Origin: Bacteroidia bacterium
GTDB taxonomy: Bacteria; Bacteroidota; Bacteroidia; JADZBD01
Assembly (NCBI GenBank): GCA_020852255.1
Contig: JADZBD010000007.1
Span: 62,001-126,000 of the forward strand
Reading direction: 5' to 3'
Length of the DNA: 64,000 nucleotides
Shown here: one piece after another, positions 747 through 7,047 of the stretch
Layout: each line of letters begins with the position of its first letter
Position numbering within the stretch: position 1 is the first letter of the stretch
The notes under the pieces: model-generated
Told to the model about the DNA's origin: nothing
The model's input: only the letters and a program-made list of their open reading frames with translations
The model's database searches: none
Made by a program: the position numbers and the translations under genes

Positions 747-1967
747 ATGGATAAACGCCGCATTGCAGTTGTAGGAGGAGGTGCAGCTGGCTTTTTCGGA
801 GCATTGCAGATAATTGAAAATGAGCCGAATATAGAGGTAACGATTTATGAAGCAGGTCAGCGGCTTCTCAATAAGGTCCGGGTCAGCGGAGGGGGTAGAT
901 GCAATGTAACCCACCAGTGTACGGACCCTTCTCTTCTGGTCGACTATTATCCGAGAGGAAACAAGGAATTACGGCAGGTTTTTTCAAGATTCTGCGTCGA
1001 GGACCTGGTGAACTGGTTCGAAAAAAAGGGAGTGCGCCTTCACACAGAGCCTGACGGCAGAATGTTTCCGGCTACCAACCAGTCTCAAACCATTGTCAAT
1101 TTTTTTCTCGATGCGGCCGGGAAGTCGGGAATCCGGGTGCGGAGGGAATTTAAAGTGGTGCGCATCGGGAAGGAGAATGGAATGTTCCAAATTTACTCAC
1201 AGGGAGGAGAAGTGGAAAATGCAGATAGGGTTTTATTCACAACGGGGGGCAACACCACGCCGGCACATTTTGATGTCCTGCGAAATCTTGGGGTGAGCAT
1301 AGTGGAGCCCGTACCGTCATTGTTTACATTTAATATTCCGGATCGGGGCTTGAATAGCCTAATGGGCGTTACGGTTCCGGAAGCAATCATTTCTCTGCCT
1401 GAACCGGGATTGGAAGCCGCCGGCCCACTGCTTGTTACTCATTGGGGTCTGTCAGGTCCGGCGGTACTGAAGCTATCCGCCTCCGCCGCCCGCATCCTGA
1501 GTGCCTGTAACTATCGCTGTTCGGTTCACGTTCGCTGGACGGATAGCATATTGCTCGAGGAGCGAATAGCTTCAGGGGCGGGAACTCAGATGAAGAATAT
1601 TATTACCGGTCTGCCTTCCCGGTTGTGGGAGTACCTTCTGAAGCGGACTGCGATAGACCCTTTAAAACGGGCTGCTGATTTAAGTAAGGCAGACAAAAGT
1701 GTGCTGCGAAATGTCATAGAAAGGGATGAATACATGATGGAAGGAAAGACCACATTTAGGGAAGAATTTGTTACCTGCGGAGGGGTCTCATTGAAAGAGG
1801 TAAATATGAAAACAATGGAAAGCCGCCAGGTGCCCGGGCTATTCTTCGCCGGGGAGGTACTGGATATTGACGGGTTTACCGGAGGGTTTAATTTCCAGGC
1901 GGCCTGGAGTACAGCCTATGTAGCCGCTATGGGTGTTATTAGCTCAAAATCAGTAAATTTGCCCTGA
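747..1967 (+). CDS. BaiN/HI0933-family FAD-dependent oxidoreductase
   Basis: A 406-residue flavoprotein of the HI0933/BaiN (YhiN) family, also called aminoacetone oxidase-type. It opens with an FAD-binding Rossmann motif (GGGAAG, residues 10-15), has the family signature SGGGRCN (47-53), and near the C-terminus a second FAD contact, AGEVLDIDGFTGGFNFQ (about 367-383). Length is normal for the family. Substrates of most members are unknown; BaiN itself was proposed to act on bile-acid intermediates, which should not be transferred here. The start codon follows GCAGC directly, with the weak box GAATATTG at 735-742. The PorE-like gene begins 14 bases after its stop, so the two may share a transcript. 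Confidence 0.88.
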   Translation: MDKRRIAVVGGGAAGFFGALQIIENEPNIEVTIYEAGQRLLNKVRVSGGGRCNVTHQCTDPSLLVDYYPRGNKELRQVFSRFCVEDLVNWFEKKGVRLHTEPDGRMFPATNQSQTIVNFFLDAAGKSGIRVRREFKVVRIGKENGMFQIYSQGGEVENADRVLFTTGGNTTPAHFDVLRNLGVSIVEPVPSLFTFNIPDRGLNSLMGVTVPEAIISLPEPGLEAAGPLLVTHWGLSGPAVLKLSASAARILSACNYRCSVHVRWTDSILLEERIASGAGTQMKNIITGLPSRLWEYLLKRTAIDPLKRAADLSKADKSVLRNVIERDEYMMEGKTTFREEFVTCGGVSLKEVNMKTMESRQVPGLFFAGEVLDIDGFTGGFNFQAAWSTAYVAAMGVISSKSVNLP

Positions 1968-1981
1968 TCAAAAACATTCAC

Positions 1982-3967
1982 ATGACCAGGAAAATTATTT
2001 TCTTGATGCTCGTTTCCCTGTTCCTCACCCCGGCTCTGGTGCAGGCACAGAAAAAGGGCTTCCTGAAAACGGCTTCAGATAAGCGCGATTTTGACGAAGC
2101 GGAGTTGCTTTTCATGAACGGTGATTATGATAATGCGCTCAAGACCTACGAAAAAATGGAGCGGAATTACCCCAACGAACCCTATTTGATCTATAAGGTA
2201 GGGTGTTGCAATGTTTTTGTCGACGGAGGATTTACAAAGGCCATCGAAAACCTGAGCAAACTGGACCGAAAGAAATTCAGAAAAACGGACCTGCTCTATT
2301 ATCTGGGAAGGGCCTATCATCTTGATTACCGCTTTGAGGAGGCGATAGCACTCTTGAATGAATACAGGCAGAGTAAATGGGCCTCGGCTAAGTTGAAGTT
2401 GGATGCTGAACGTGTTATTAAATATTGCCAGAACGGGATAGAGTTGATGAAGAATCCAGGGAAGGCAACGGTAAAAAACTTGGAAGGACCATTGAATACA
2501 TCCGGCAGCGAGTATGTGCCGGTGCTTAATATGGAGGAGAACATCATGTATTTTACCTACCGGGGAGAAAAATCCGTAGGTGGCAAGCAGGTGGTGCCGG
2601 ATGTTCCTGACGAAAACGGAGATTATTTCGAGGACATTTTTACCTCCCGCAAAACAGCTGACGGATGGACAAGCCCTGAACCTTTGTCCGATTCTGTAAA
2701 TACCACAGGTCACGATGCAAATATTTCGCTCTCAGCAGACGGACTGAAACTTTTTATGTTCATGAATCCTTCCCATGATCCCGGACAGATCGCTTACACA
2801 TTTAAGGACTCTACAGGATGGATCCGTCCCCGCTTGTTGAAGGGTGATATTGAGAGCGGCGCCTGGGAAGGAAGTGTGTGTCTTTCTTTTGACGAAAAAA
2901 TGCTATTCTTTGCTTCCGAACGCAGCGGAGGCGAAGGTAAAAAGGATATCTATATCGCTTTCAAGGATGCCGGCGATAAATGGAATAAAGTAAAAGGCCT
3001 GGGAAAAACTATTAATACGGAAGCAGATGAAGATGCGCCATTTCTTCATCCGAACGGACTTTTCCTCATATTCGCTTCCAACGGAAGAAACAGCATGGGC
3101 GGATATGATCTTTTTTATTCCGAGATGACTGCGGACAGCAACTGGTCAGAGCCTGTAAACCTTGGCTATCCCATCAATACTCCTGGAGATGATATTTACT
3201 TTCATCTTTCCCTTAGCGGAAAACGCGGCTATTACTCGTCCGACCGTAAGGGCGGATATGGTAAACAGGATCTCTACCTGATTGAGAACCCCTTTGATAA
3301 GAAATTTGCTGTACAGGTGGTGCAAGGTGTGGTAACTGTGGATGATCTTCCGGCGCAGGTAGAAGTTCTGGTGTATAATTCCAGCACAGGCGCTTTGGTG
3401 AAAACACTGCTCTCCGATCCCACCACCGGCCGGTATTTCATTTACCTACCCCGCGGTGCTAAATATGAGGTGAAGTTCAAGTACAAGGATCTGATCTCCG
3501 ACAAGAATTATCTGAATACGATAGAAATCCAGGATTACACGGAAACCAATTGGCCAATCAAACTGTACACGGAGGAATACCGGAAGAGAATGCTTCAAAA
3601 GCAGGACAGCATAATGACGGTTTCTGATACGATTGTGGAAAAGACACTGAACTTCCAGGAGGTGCTCATTCTGTATGGCGACAAAAGTGCTGAAGGACTG
3701 GTATTCAAGGTTCAGGTAGGAGCCTTCAGTAATGCAAAGAATTTCGACAAAAAGCAGGCTTCCAGGCTCGGCAAGGTGGAGAATACGGTGCTGTCCGACG
3801 GAATTACCCGTTTCACTGTGGGTACCTTCAATACGCTGAACAAAGCACAAAATTTTAAAAGCAAAGCGGTAAAGGCAGGCATAGACGATGCCTTTATTAC
3901 GGCTATTTATAAAGGAGAAAGAGTCTACCTGAAGCAGATTGTGCATCTGCTTTCCGGTCAGAAGTAA
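1982..3967 (+). CDS. PorE-like periplasmic protein: TPR, PD40 propeller, regulatory-like fold, SPOR domain
   Basis: A 661-residue exported protein. Signal peptide at residues 1-23, ending ALVQAQ. Next come TPR-like helices (about 30-150), then WD40/PD40 propeller repeats (about 165-440; recurring blades such as LSLSGKRGYYSSDRKGGYG), a carboxypeptidase-regulatory-like beta-sandwich (about 445-530, containing GVVTVDDLPAQVEVLVYN), and a C-terminal SPOR domain (about 575-650, opening FKVQVGAFSNAKNF). The first three modules and their order match PorE, the T9SS protein that ties the secretion ring to peptidoglycan. PorE ends in OmpA_C; here a SPOR module, which binds denuded glycan strands, takes that position. 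A role in envelope anchoring is inferred. It may be a PorE paralogue rather than the secretion component itself. Confidence 0.75.
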   Translation: MTRKIIFLMLVSLFLTPALVQAQKKGFLKTASDKRDFDEAELLFMNGDYDNALKTYEKMERNYPNEPYLIYKVGCCNVFVDGGFTKAIENLSKLDRKKFRKTDLLYYLGRAYHLDYRFEEAIALLNEYRQSKWASAKLKLDAERVIKYCQNGIELMKNPGKATVKNLEGPLNTSGSEYVPVLNMEENIMYFTYRGEKSVGGKQVVPDVPDENGDYFEDIFTSRKTADGWTSPEPLSDSVNTTGHDANISLSADGLKLFMFMNPSHDPGQIAYTFKDSTGWIRPRLLKGDIESGAWEGSVCLSFDEKMLFFASERSGGEGKKDIYIAFKDAGDKWNKVKGLGKTINTEADEDAPFLHPNGLFLIFASNGRNSMGGYDLFYSEMTADSNWSEPVNLGYPINTPGDDIYFHLSLSGKRGYYSSDRKGGYGKQDLYLIENPFDKKFAVQVVQGVVTVDDLPAQVEVLVYNSSTGALVKTLLSDPTTGRYFIYLPRGAKYEVKFKYKDLISDKNYLNTIEIQDYTETNWPIKLYTEEYRKRMLQKQDSIMTVSDTIVEKTLNFQEVLILYGDKSAEGLVFKVQVGAFSNAKNFDKKQASRLGKVENTVLSDGITRFTVGTFNTLNKAQNFKSKAVKAGIDDAFITAIYKGERVYLKQIVHLLSGQK

Positions 3968-3981
3968 CGAGAAGGTCTGTG

Positions 3982-5124
3982 ATGAAAGTGTATTTCGACA
4001 ACGCAGCAACCACTCCCATGGATCCGGAAGTGGTAGAAGCCATGATCCCGTTTATGAAGGAGCATTTCGGGAATCCTTCTTCCATTCACAGCTTCGGAAG
4101 ACAAACACGGGCTGCCATTGAAAACGCCAGAAAAACCGTGGCCAGATTTCTTCACGTTTCCCCGGGAGAAATCTTTTTTACTTCCGGTGGTACGGAATCC
4201 AACAACATGGCCATTCAGTGTGCAGTTCGCGACCTGGGCGTGGATACCATTATTACTTCTCCGATCGAGCATCATGCGGTACTCCATACTATTGAAGTGC
4301 TTGTGGAAGAAGGAAAAGTGCGCGTTAAAATGCTGCGCCTCGACCCGAAAGGATTTATCGATCTCGCCCACCTGGAGGAGTTGCTGAAAGAAGGAGGAAA
4401 GATACTGGTCTCCCTTATGCATGCCAACAACGAGATCGGAAATTTGCTGCCCCTGAAGAAAGTTTCAGAGCTGTGCAGCAAGTTTGAGGCATTCTTTCAT
4501 ACTGATACGGTGCAGACCATGGGTCATTATACCTTTAACCTGAATGAGGTACCAGTTGATTTCCTGAGCTGTGCCGCCCATAAATTTCACGGCCCCAAGG
4601 GAGTCGGATTCATTTATATCAACAGCCGGATAAAAGTTCATCCTTTTATTCACGGCGGGTCTCAGGAACGAAATATGCGGGGGGGCACAGAAAATCTTAC
4701 AGGAATAATTGGCCTGGCCAAAGCAATGGAAGTGGCATATGGTCATCTTAATGAGCACCAGGCTCATGTGCAGGAACTCAAATCCTATATGATCCTGAAA
4801 CTGAAGGAACAGATTCCTGGTGTGAATTTCAACGGTGATCCGGAAGGCTCCTCTCTTTATACGGTACTGAATGTGCAGTTACCTTCTACCCCTAATGCTG
4901 AAATGCTGATTTTTAATCTGGATATTGCCGGCGTGGCCTGTTCGGGAGGAAGTGCATGCACTTCCGGAAGCAACGTGGGCTCACATGTACTGCGTGGGAT
5001 TCATTCGGATATGAACAGACCCTCGATTCGTTTCTCTTTCTCAAAATTTAATACCAGGGACGAGGTAGACTACGTCGTGGAAAAGCTCAGAAAGTCTCTT
5101 GGTGTGCCGGTAGAATCCCGTTAA
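3982..5124 (+). CDS. Cysteine desulfurase, IscS/NifS family
   Basis: A PLP enzyme of 380 residues that moves sulfur from L-cysteine to a carrier cysteine for Fe-S cluster, thiamine or tRNA thiolation pathways. Visible motifs are the N-terminal YFDNAATTPMDP, the TSGGTESNN cofactor loop, the EHH segment, the PLP lysine in CAAHKFHGPKG (K201) and the catalytic cysteine in SGGSACTSGS (C326). A GTG lies directly before the ATG at 3982; the ATG gives the normal family N-terminus and was chosen. No IscU, SufE or other Fe-S gene is adjacent, so its dedicated partner cannot be read from context. Its stop overlaps that of the convergent hydrolase gene within the sequence TTAA. Confidence 0.93.
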   Translation: MKVYFDNAATTPMDPEVVEAMIPFMKEHFGNPSSIHSFGRQTRAAIENARKTVARFLHVSPGEIFFTSGGTESNNMAIQCAVRDLGVDTIITSPIEHHAVLHTIEVLVEEGKVRVKMLRLDPKGFIDLAHLEELLKEGGKILVSLMHANNEIGNLLPLKKVSELCSKFEAFFHTDTVQTMGHYTFNLNEVPVDFLSCAAHKFHGPKGVGFIYINSRIKVHPFIHGGSQERNMRGGTENLTGIIGLAKAMEVAYGHLNEHQAHVQELKSYMILKLKEQIPGVNFNGDPEGSSLYTVLNVQLPSTPNAEMLIFNLDIAGVACSGGSACTSGSNVGSHVLRGIHSDMNRPSIRFSFSKFNTRDEVDYVVEKLRKSLGVPVESR

Positions 5125-7007
5125 CGAATCACAATTAGTTTTTCTGTCTGCCCCCACGTTGTCCGTACACTATATATTCCGGCAGGAAGTCCGGTGAGAT
5201 CAATCCGTACATCACCGGCAGCAGCACACAATTGCTCCAGTACGATACGTCCTGTGCCGTCCATGATCTGAACAGTTCCTTTCTGACTGCAAGAGCTAAC
5301 AATTAGATAATCGCTGGCCGGATTTGGAAAGATAAAAAGAGGCGCGATGACATTTTCAGCAGAGCCTCCGTTGAAATCAACCAGCGGAAGCGTGATGTAT
5401 GAATAATCAGTGCTGTTCATATAGATGCTGTTGCTCGCAATAAGAGGATTTACCAGCGTATCGAGACTCGGACCCGGATACATGGCACCTCCTGTATTCA
5501 TATTTCTGTTGAACCGGGGATAGTTCGAGGAAGTAATGTCTACACGGATCTTATGCCCGGCAAGGAAGGTAATCGCCGTATGGGGCAGATCAACAAGGAT
5601 GTCGTAGATGGTACCCGGATTCATTACCGCGGTGTCAGCAGCCATGTACCCGTTCCGAAATCTCATGCGGAATATGCCATCGTGAATAAGCATGCTCCTT
5701 CCGTCTGGATATACATCCGTCAGGCGAACCGAAAAATCAGTATCTAGCCGGTCCGACGATACTTTCATCCGGACTTGTGGTTTTCCTTTCAGGATCACAT
5801 CTGCACCAAGGGGTGCTGTGGTAAAAGTGAGAATGTCGCTCCTGGATTCAACCAGCGGAACCTGATCAAACGGGCCCTGATCAAGATCCGCGCGAAGGGT
5901 AGTACCGCCAATGGTGGGAGAAGGATCGGTAGGGTCATACAAAAAAGAGGCATCACCCGTTGCGCTAACAGGAGAGATATTATCCAGGCCACCGCCCGGA
6001 TGAAAATACAGATTGATATTATTCATTCCGGTGGGAGGCCAGGTCGTTGAAGAATTCCAGACATTACTTCCCATCTGGTAATACTGAATAAAGGGAGTGC
6101 TGTTCCAATTGTTGGGAATGGCGCGCAGGTGATAATCGTAAAACAACAGAGCCAGTGAGTCATTCCACCAGGCTGCATTGGGATAAGACAATTGCCCCTG
6201 GTTCGGACTTCCTACCTGTGCGGGTCCGTATCCGCCGTGTACCCAGGGTCCCATCAGCAGACGATGCTGGTTCTGTACGTTTGCAGGAGAGTTACTGCGG
6301 ATTCCGTTAAAAAAATCAATCATTACATCAATGGTATGATCATACCATCCGCCGATCATAAACGTCGGAATCCGTATACTGTCAGGGTAGAAATTCGTCA
6401 TCTCGGATACCTGCCAGAGTATATTGTATACCGGATTTGCCAGCAGTGTCGCTGACATTCCAAAGCCCAGACCATCCAGTTGTTCAACATACTCTGTTCG
6501 AATGGATCCTCCGGGAAAATACTCGAGATAACTGTATTGCGGTCCGGCCACGAGCGGAACCATACAGTCAAGGGAGGGAGGATTTTTCTTCGCAGTCATA
6601 AACTGGACCCTCCCTAATGCGGAAGGACCCCAGGTACCTATTTTTCCGTTGCACCAGGCACGGGTGTTCACCCATTCGATCACGTCATAACCATCGTTGC
6701 CGCGGGCAGGACAGTTCAGGTAATAGGCCGCCTGCGAGCCGTAGAAACCCCGCCAGTCAACGATTACGAATGCGTAATTGCTGTTGTTCAGGTTCATTCC
6801 AACACCAAGTGGAAGTCCGATGACCTGGTAGGCCAAACGGTTATAAGGAGTCTGAATAACAATCACCGGTCCACTGGTCCAACCGGAGGGAAGATAAATG
6901 CTGCAGGCGAGCTTACGGTTATCGGCCGTGGGAACAGAATCAAAAATGGGGCTAAGCTGGGCAGTGAGGGAACCGCCCAACAATAATAAAAACAAGAGTG
7001 ATCTCAT
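5121..7007 (-). CDS. CocE/NonD-family serine hydrolase with T9SS type A sorting domain
   Basis: A secreted hydrolase of about 628 residues. The chosen ATG at 7007 gives a clean signal peptide, MRSLLFLLLLGGSLTAQ; a TTG/ATG nine codons upstream would spoil it. The S15/CocE fold shows a nucleophile elbow GPSALG (preceded by GTW), the acid in GGWYDHTID and the histidine in GPWVHGGYG, so the triad is intact. The jelly-roll C-terminal half is followed by about 75 residues of Por secretion type A domain (FIFPNPASDYLIV, then GLPAGIYSVRT). The protein is therefore predicted to be exported through T9SS and held at the surface or released. Relatives are acyl esterases and X-Pro peptidases; the substrate is not known. 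The gene lies 40 bases downstream of the M13 peptidase gene, in the same direction. Confidence 0.88.
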   Translation of the reverse strand: MRSLLFLLLLGGSLTAQLSPIFDSVPTADNRKLACSIYLPSGWTSGPVIVIQTPYNRLAYQVIGLPLGVGMNLNNSNYAFVIVDWRGFYGSQAAYYLNCPARGNDGYDVIEWVNTRAWCNGKIGTWGPSALGRVQFMTAKKNPPSLDCMVPLVAGPQYSYLEYFPGGSIRTEYVEQLDGLGFGMSATLLANPVYNILWQVSEMTNFYPDSIRIPTFMIGGWYDHTIDVMIDFFNGIRSNSPANVQNQHRLLMGPWVHGGYGPAQVGSPNQGQLSYPNAAWWNDSLALLFYDYHLRAIPNNWNSTPFIQYYQMGSNVWNSSTTWPPTGMNNINLYFHPGGGLDNISPVSATGDASFLYDPTDPSPTIGGTTLRADLDQGPFDQVPLVESRSDILTFTTAPLGADVILKGKPQVRMKVSSDRLDTDFSVRLTDVYPDGRSMLIHDGIFRMRFRNGYMAADTAVMNPGTIYDILVDLPHTAITFLAGHKIRVDITSSNYPRFNRNMNTGGAMYPGPSLDTLVNPLIASNSIYMNSTDYSYITLPLVDFNGGSAENVIAPLFIFPNPASDYLIVSSCSQKGTVQIMDGTGRIVLEQLCAAAGDVRIDLTGLPAGIYSVRTTWGQTEKLIVIR

Positions 7008-7047
7008 GACCATAAGACGCACGGTAGCGAACAAGGTTTAATGGTCC

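Follow-up and report, generated by a model that had tools for sequence, protein, structure and literature searches.

A SPOR domain in place of OmpA_C in a PorE-like TPR-PD40 protein of a Bacteroidia bacterium and in its subfamily

Main finding

A gene in the window (the whole stretch of 64,000 nucleotides that was analysed) encodes a 661-aa protein that is built like PorE of the type IX secretion system (T9SS) but ends in a SPOR domain in place of OmpA_C. The SPOR identity of this C-terminal module was confirmed, and the swap of OmpA_C for SPOR is old and common to many uncultured Bacteroidia, not unique to the source genome. In Bacteroidota, the attachment of outer-membrane complexes to the cell wall has been described for PorE-like proteins, which use OmpA_C for it. 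Judging from sequence, model and analogy, the 661-aa protein is probably a periplasmic tether, a PorE-like paralogue that would link an outer-membrane partner to denuded glycan through SPOR. A SPOR domain in this place would tie the complex to peptide-free wall and thereby determine where, and when in the cell cycle, it is held.

Domain organization of the 661-aa protein

Sequence inspection, Pfam, an AlphaFold2 model built on 33 aligned relatives and Foldseek together give the order of modules read in the preliminary description, which is that of PorE: signal peptide, TPR, PD40 propeller and regulatory-like fold (Table 1). The first 35 residues contain no Cys and hence no lipobox. Among the Pfam matches of the protein, TPR_14 scored 26.7 bits (cut-off 23.5) and PD40 58.3 bits (6e-16, four stretches); CarboxypepD_reg is not among them, and the regulatory-like fold was assigned from the model and from paralogues. 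The mean pLDDT of the whole protein is 90.3, with values below 50 in residues 542-553 of the linker. The top Foldseek matches of the whole model are propeller proteins, several of them with five-bladed GH43/GH62/GH130 folds.

Table 1. Positions in the window of the gene encoding the 661-aa protein, its modules and glycan-contact residues, and the adjoining genes.
Feature	Residues (aa)	Position	Strand	Evidence
Whole gene (ATG start): signal peptide - TPR - PD40 propeller - regulatory-like fold - linker - SPOR	1-661	1982..3967	+	ORF, Pfam, AlphaFold2, homologues of the same layout
Sec signal peptide, ...VQA/Q	1-22	1982..2047	+	Assigned by eye; N-termini of 33 relatives inspected
TPR helices	31-157	2072..2452	+	Pfam TPR_14, model helices, designed TPR proteins in PDB
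PD40 beta-propeller, about 20 strands = five blades	160-437	2459..3292	+	Pfam, model strands, Foldseek
Carboxypeptidase-regulatory-like beta fold	443-528	3308..3565	+	Model strands 444-528; paralogues match CarboxypepD_reg
Linker, low-confidence stretch flanked by two short helices	529-571	3566..3694	+	Model
SPOR domain, including an additional strand and helix at the C-terminus	572-658	3695..3955	+	Pfam, profile against 1x60, model, Foldseek
Gln578, equivalent of the glycan-binding Gln in RlpA (Q270) and FtsN (Q251)	578	3713..3715	+	Conservation; PMC6895207
Arg610, equivalent of FtsN R285 / RlpA R309, basic patch	610	3809..3811	+	Conservation; PMC6895207
Upstream FAD enzyme, TIGR00275 family, 14 bp before the gene		747..1967	+	NCBIfam, 386.8 bits, cut-off 183.8
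Downstream cysteine desulfurase (NifS/IscS-like), 11 bp after the gene		3979..5124	+	NCBIfam

Identity and fold of the C-terminal domain

The preliminary description had assigned the last 75 residues to SPOR instead of OmpA_C. The identity holds, but the domain proper extends over approximately residues 572-658. The full-length Pfam scan gave a match to SPOR (PF05036) that is above the cut-off of 21 bits and marginal (21.8 bits at aa 575-639), while the isolated C-terminal domain reached 26.1 bits; no OmpA match was found by Pfam in the 661-aa protein with the E threshold relaxed to 1. Among PDB sequences, the C-terminus matches the CwlC SPOR domain (1x60) best, with an E of 8e-4 for the single sequence and 1.4e-5 for a family profile of 37 relatives. 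Since Foldseek of the whole model returned propellers only, the domain was modelled alone (pLDDT 95.1). This model displays the RNP-like beta-alpha-beta-beta-alpha-beta fold of solved SPOR domains, and Foldseek placed the SPOR domains of CwlC (prob 1.00) and DedD (0.99) on top. The agreement of profile, fold and conservation rules out a chance or marginal SPOR call.

Distribution and descent of the SPOR subfamily

To place the protein among its relatives, we considered the 78 best-ranked by full-length similarity in a scan of named genomes; a C-terminal domain profile locates SPOR at this position in 77 of the 78, a count that applies to the matches listed and is not a frequency. The lone exception (L118) runs off its contig end. 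The recurrence of the same layout rules out a frame fusion or assembly artefact. The case considered in the preliminary description as speaking against its reading, that many orthologues already carry SPOR at this position, holds for this subfamily and not for PorE orthologues proper.

A profile of the regulatory fold plus SPOR was matched at E <= 1e-25 by 44 of 198 relative genomes, some of which may match through SPOR alone, and the strict short form, whose open frame measures about 650-720 aa, is present in at least 18 of the 198. In an even sample of 198 genomes across the phylum, the SPOR form was found in the source genome only. The SPOR form is therefore common among certain Bacteroidia, most of them uncultured, and rare outside these.

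A branch of the phylogenetic trees has 45 of the 46 SPOR-bearing rows on the same side; its support is 98 with one model and 58 with the mixture model. The remaining row, sL039, was placed apart from the main SPOR clade. The plain reading of these trees would be one main origin and a second small one, and the outlier suggests that SPOR was attached to the TPR-PD40 scaffold more than once. The main clade, the occurrence of the strict short form in at least 18 genomes and the partly shared gene neighbour mark the subfamily as old.

The SPOR-bearing proteins occur in two forms: a short one with a single SPOR, to which the window gene belongs, and a long one of about 950 aa with up to three. The source genome also encodes a long paralogue (L054:4405-7197, contig C2; 930 aa) with TPR, PD40, regulatory fold and three SPOR domains. 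It shares the scaffold and the terminal SPOR with the window gene and falls in a neighbouring clade, but differs by two extra internal SPOR domains, of a type that mostly has Glu or Asp for Gln. The long form has a gene neighbourhood of its own, conserved in at least 20 loci. Long and short genes are adjacent or one gene apart in eight loci, which suggests an origin by tandem duplication; in the source genome the two lie on different contigs.

The SPOR version is an established subfamily. Pfam detects SPOR in only 14 of 37 of its C-terminal domains, and with most members below detection this branch is largely invisible in current annotation. A search of the open literature found no paper describing the SPOR version, nor any on SPOR with PD40, SPOR with T9SS, or SPOR with Flavobacterium and TPR. 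The modules and the scaffold are each known, and their combination is a conserved, largely unannotated variant of which a prior description is possible.

Glycan-contact residues

In RlpA and FtsN, lactyl groups that become exposed only on removal of the peptide are held by a Gln together with a basic patch (PMC6895207). The equivalent Gln578 is invariant in the relatives (33/33) and in the single or terminal SPOR domains (93/93), and the position of Arg610 is kept in 32/33 and 84/93, respectively. In the long form, Glu or Asp occupies the Gln position in 21 of 23 first internal SPOR domains, and Glu in all 14 second ones. Gln kept in the terminal domain and Glu or Asp in the internal ones points to a specific constraint on the binding face of the terminal domain. 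Conservation of the glutamine and of the basic residue supports the preference for denuded glycan put forward in the preliminary description. By extrapolation from SPOR domains of other phyla, the SPOR of the short form should prefer such glycan.

Relation to PorE and CHU_0125

The protein resembles PorE (PG1058/PGN_1296) in having TPR, a five-bladed propeller and a regulatory-like fold in the same order, as well as periplasmic export and a C-terminal peptidoglycan module. It differs in that SPOR replaces OmpA_C and the lipoprotein cysteine is absent. The F. johnsoniae homologues have no lipoprotein signal either (PMC7192894), so the missing lipobox is weak evidence against PorE. The TPR-PD40 front end is also shared with CHU_0125, the OmpA-like outer membrane integrity protein of Cytophaga hutchinsonii, which, unlike the 661-aa protein, has OmpA_C at its end. 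With FtsN, DamX, DedD, RlpA and CwlC the protein shares the C-terminal SPOR fold, the glycan-binding Gln and the basic residue; in those proteins SPOR is paired with membrane anchors or wall enzymes, and here with a TPR-propeller scaffold.

Comparison with the NCBIfam models gave 158.6 bits for T9SS_PorE (NF052230; cut-off 600), in a match that ends at aa 455, and 173.4 bits for CHU_0125 (NF053607; cut-off 620), which is the top NCBIfam match by bits and ends at aa 563; both matches end before SPOR. The source genome (3.28 Mb) encodes about 20 TPR-PD40 paralogues, and a separate classical PorE, as proposed in the preliminary description, was looked for among them. Two proteins encoded in tandem on contig C3 match the PorE model over its whole length and have OmpA in the expected position, at 536 and 485 bits; no protein of the source genome reaches the cut-off of 600, the top score being 536. 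For one of them, the one tested, the solved P. gingivalis PorE domain 6TOP is the best PDB match, and trees built on the part of the proteins that precedes the wall module place the pair far from the SPOR group. These two proteins, both below the curated cut-off, are better PorE candidates than the 661-aa protein. The pair is encoded at L060:3803-8392, and neither protein has a lipobox.

The 661-aa protein as PorE is ruled out by its low NCBIfam score and by having no OmpA_C, no lipobox and no adjacent PorP. The same absences, together with the lack of the SPOR form in most T9SS-positive genomes sampled, speak against the preliminary suggestion of a T9SS component. The protein is a paralogue among the approximately 20 TPR-PD40 proteins, and the other possibility raised at that time, a paralogue that connects the wall to another complex, fits best.

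Several of these proteins in the source genome are bare forms. One of them, a 523-aa TPR-PD40-regulatory-fold paralogue without any wall module, is encoded about 7 kb upstream of the window gene (L057:7192-8763, contig C7).

Gene neighbourhood

The upstream FAD enzyme gene is probably co-transcribed with the gene of the 661-aa protein. A TIGR00275 FAD gene likewise lies immediately upstream in two related loci (L066 and L076), and L076 has two further upstream genes in common, in the same order; these conserved neighbours support vertical descent and do not indicate a function. A homologue of the downstream cysteine desulfurase was not found by synteny beside the genes of the relatives. Scans for promoters and terminators gave nothing above shuffles. 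No PorP gene adjoins the window gene, and PorP-like ORFs were found in two of about 78 related loci, four and six genes away and in no case at three genes or fewer. These positions and the search of related loci rule out a gene pair with PorP. No division genes lie next to the window gene. Further downstream, on the opposite strand, window positions 5121-7034 (-) encode an X-Pro dipeptidyl-peptidase (S15/PepX_C) whose C-terminus carries the T9SS sorting domain Por_Secre_tail, which marks it as a type IX cargo protein within the window.

Proposed function

Glycan binding, the partner, the location and the biological role of the 661-aa protein are proposed here from the comparisons above. The protein would be a periplasmic scaffold, exported by Sec and belonging to the PorE/CHU_0125-like TPR-PD40 superfamily, with SPOR as its peptidoglycan module. 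PorE binds PorP, which in turn binds a type B cargo protein (PMC9143113), and the OmpA_C of PorE holds the peptide stem (PMC7192894). By analogy with these PorE-PorP-cargo experiments, an outer-membrane partner is likely for the TPR-propeller part, which would grip it at or under the outer membrane. The linker and SPOR, as the conserved binding residues suggest, would dock on peptide-stripped glycan strands. SPOR should hold stem-less glycan, so the protein would work, and its partner be held, where amidases have acted, at the division septum or at sites of wall turnover. Possible partners include a PorP-type barrel and a division factor.

A division protein, in which TPR, propeller and wall anchor would be a fused analogue of CpoB, TolB and Pal, respectively, is possible though doubtful; it is a narrower version of the tether explanation, and our confidence in the two overlaps. 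The TPR part is presumably CpoB-like, the PD40 repeats are TolB-like and a TolB model weakly matches a paralogue. The SPOR proteins known so far have roles in division or morphogenesis (PMC6895207), and the OmpA-bearing relative CHU_0125 is Pal-like for membrane integrity; however, its deletion gave no division defect (PMC5891637). The lack of division genes next door also counts against this explanation, and absence from most Bacteroidota sampled would make the protein at best accessory. If true, it would couple constriction of the outer membrane to splitting of the septal wall.

A T9SS role, with a PorE-like hold on a PorP-like barrel and type B cargo but on denuded glycan, is unlikely. It would anchor some surface proteins at septa or remodelling sites, and it is consistent with the existence of PorE-PorP-cargo complexes (PMC9143113), with the presence of SprA and many PorE-like genes in the source genome, and with 19 PorP-family genes over the cut-off there, of which a distant one could act. 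In addition, most of the few sampled genomes without SprA (G026, G033, G041, G073, G138) have no strong match to the SPOR form, although with SprA in 191 of 198 genomes the T9SS-negative ones are uninformative as a test. However, G059 has a strong match while SprA was not found in its 95% complete assembly, and no PorP gene adjoins the window gene or, in all but the two loci above, occurs among the related loci, although other paralogues of the source genome do adjoin PorP genes. A core part in the T9SS is unlikely because SprA is present in 191 of 198 relatives and the SPOR form in about 44; its restriction to the source genome in the even sample of the phylum points the same way.

That the SPOR fold was kept for binding protein instead of glycan, so that the swap removed wall anchoring, is very unlikely: the short helix 1 region and extra C-terminal strand and helix of the model are in its favour, and the loss of the key Gln in the internal SPOR domains of the long form suggests that repurposing may occur in the family, but Gln (93/93) and Arg (84/93) are retained in the short-form and terminal domains.

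Returning to the tether, the short and long forms might together be the two SPOR scaffolds of a septal system linking outer membrane to wall in mostly uncultured Bacteroidia. We regard this extension as improbable; if true, the system would take part of the Tol-Pal job or steer surface-protein complexes to division sites, and the long form would combine one glycan-binding SPOR with two converted to another ligand. The long form also offers a natural contrast, within one chain, between SPOR domains with and without the binding glutamine.

Other SPOR proteins

Other SPOR-bearing proteins were also detected. The source genome encodes a giant protein of 1933 aa (L055:6090-11891, contig C16) with weak N-terminal TPR and PD40 matches, Pro/Thr-rich repeats and at least two SPOR domains, and frames of this type, of about 1600-2300 aa with similar SPOR matches, occur in other Bacteroidia. 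Two adjacent genes (L056:4297-8060, contig C3) encode proteins of 468 aa with one SPOR and 768 aa with three, of the Bacteroidota type and without the PD40 scaffold. Additionally, two proteins of about 830 aa (L101:9989-12481 and L102:9998-12493) have two SPOR domains each; the extra domain is terminal, unlike in the long form, and this second SPOR is without the usual 'DGITRF' strand motif.
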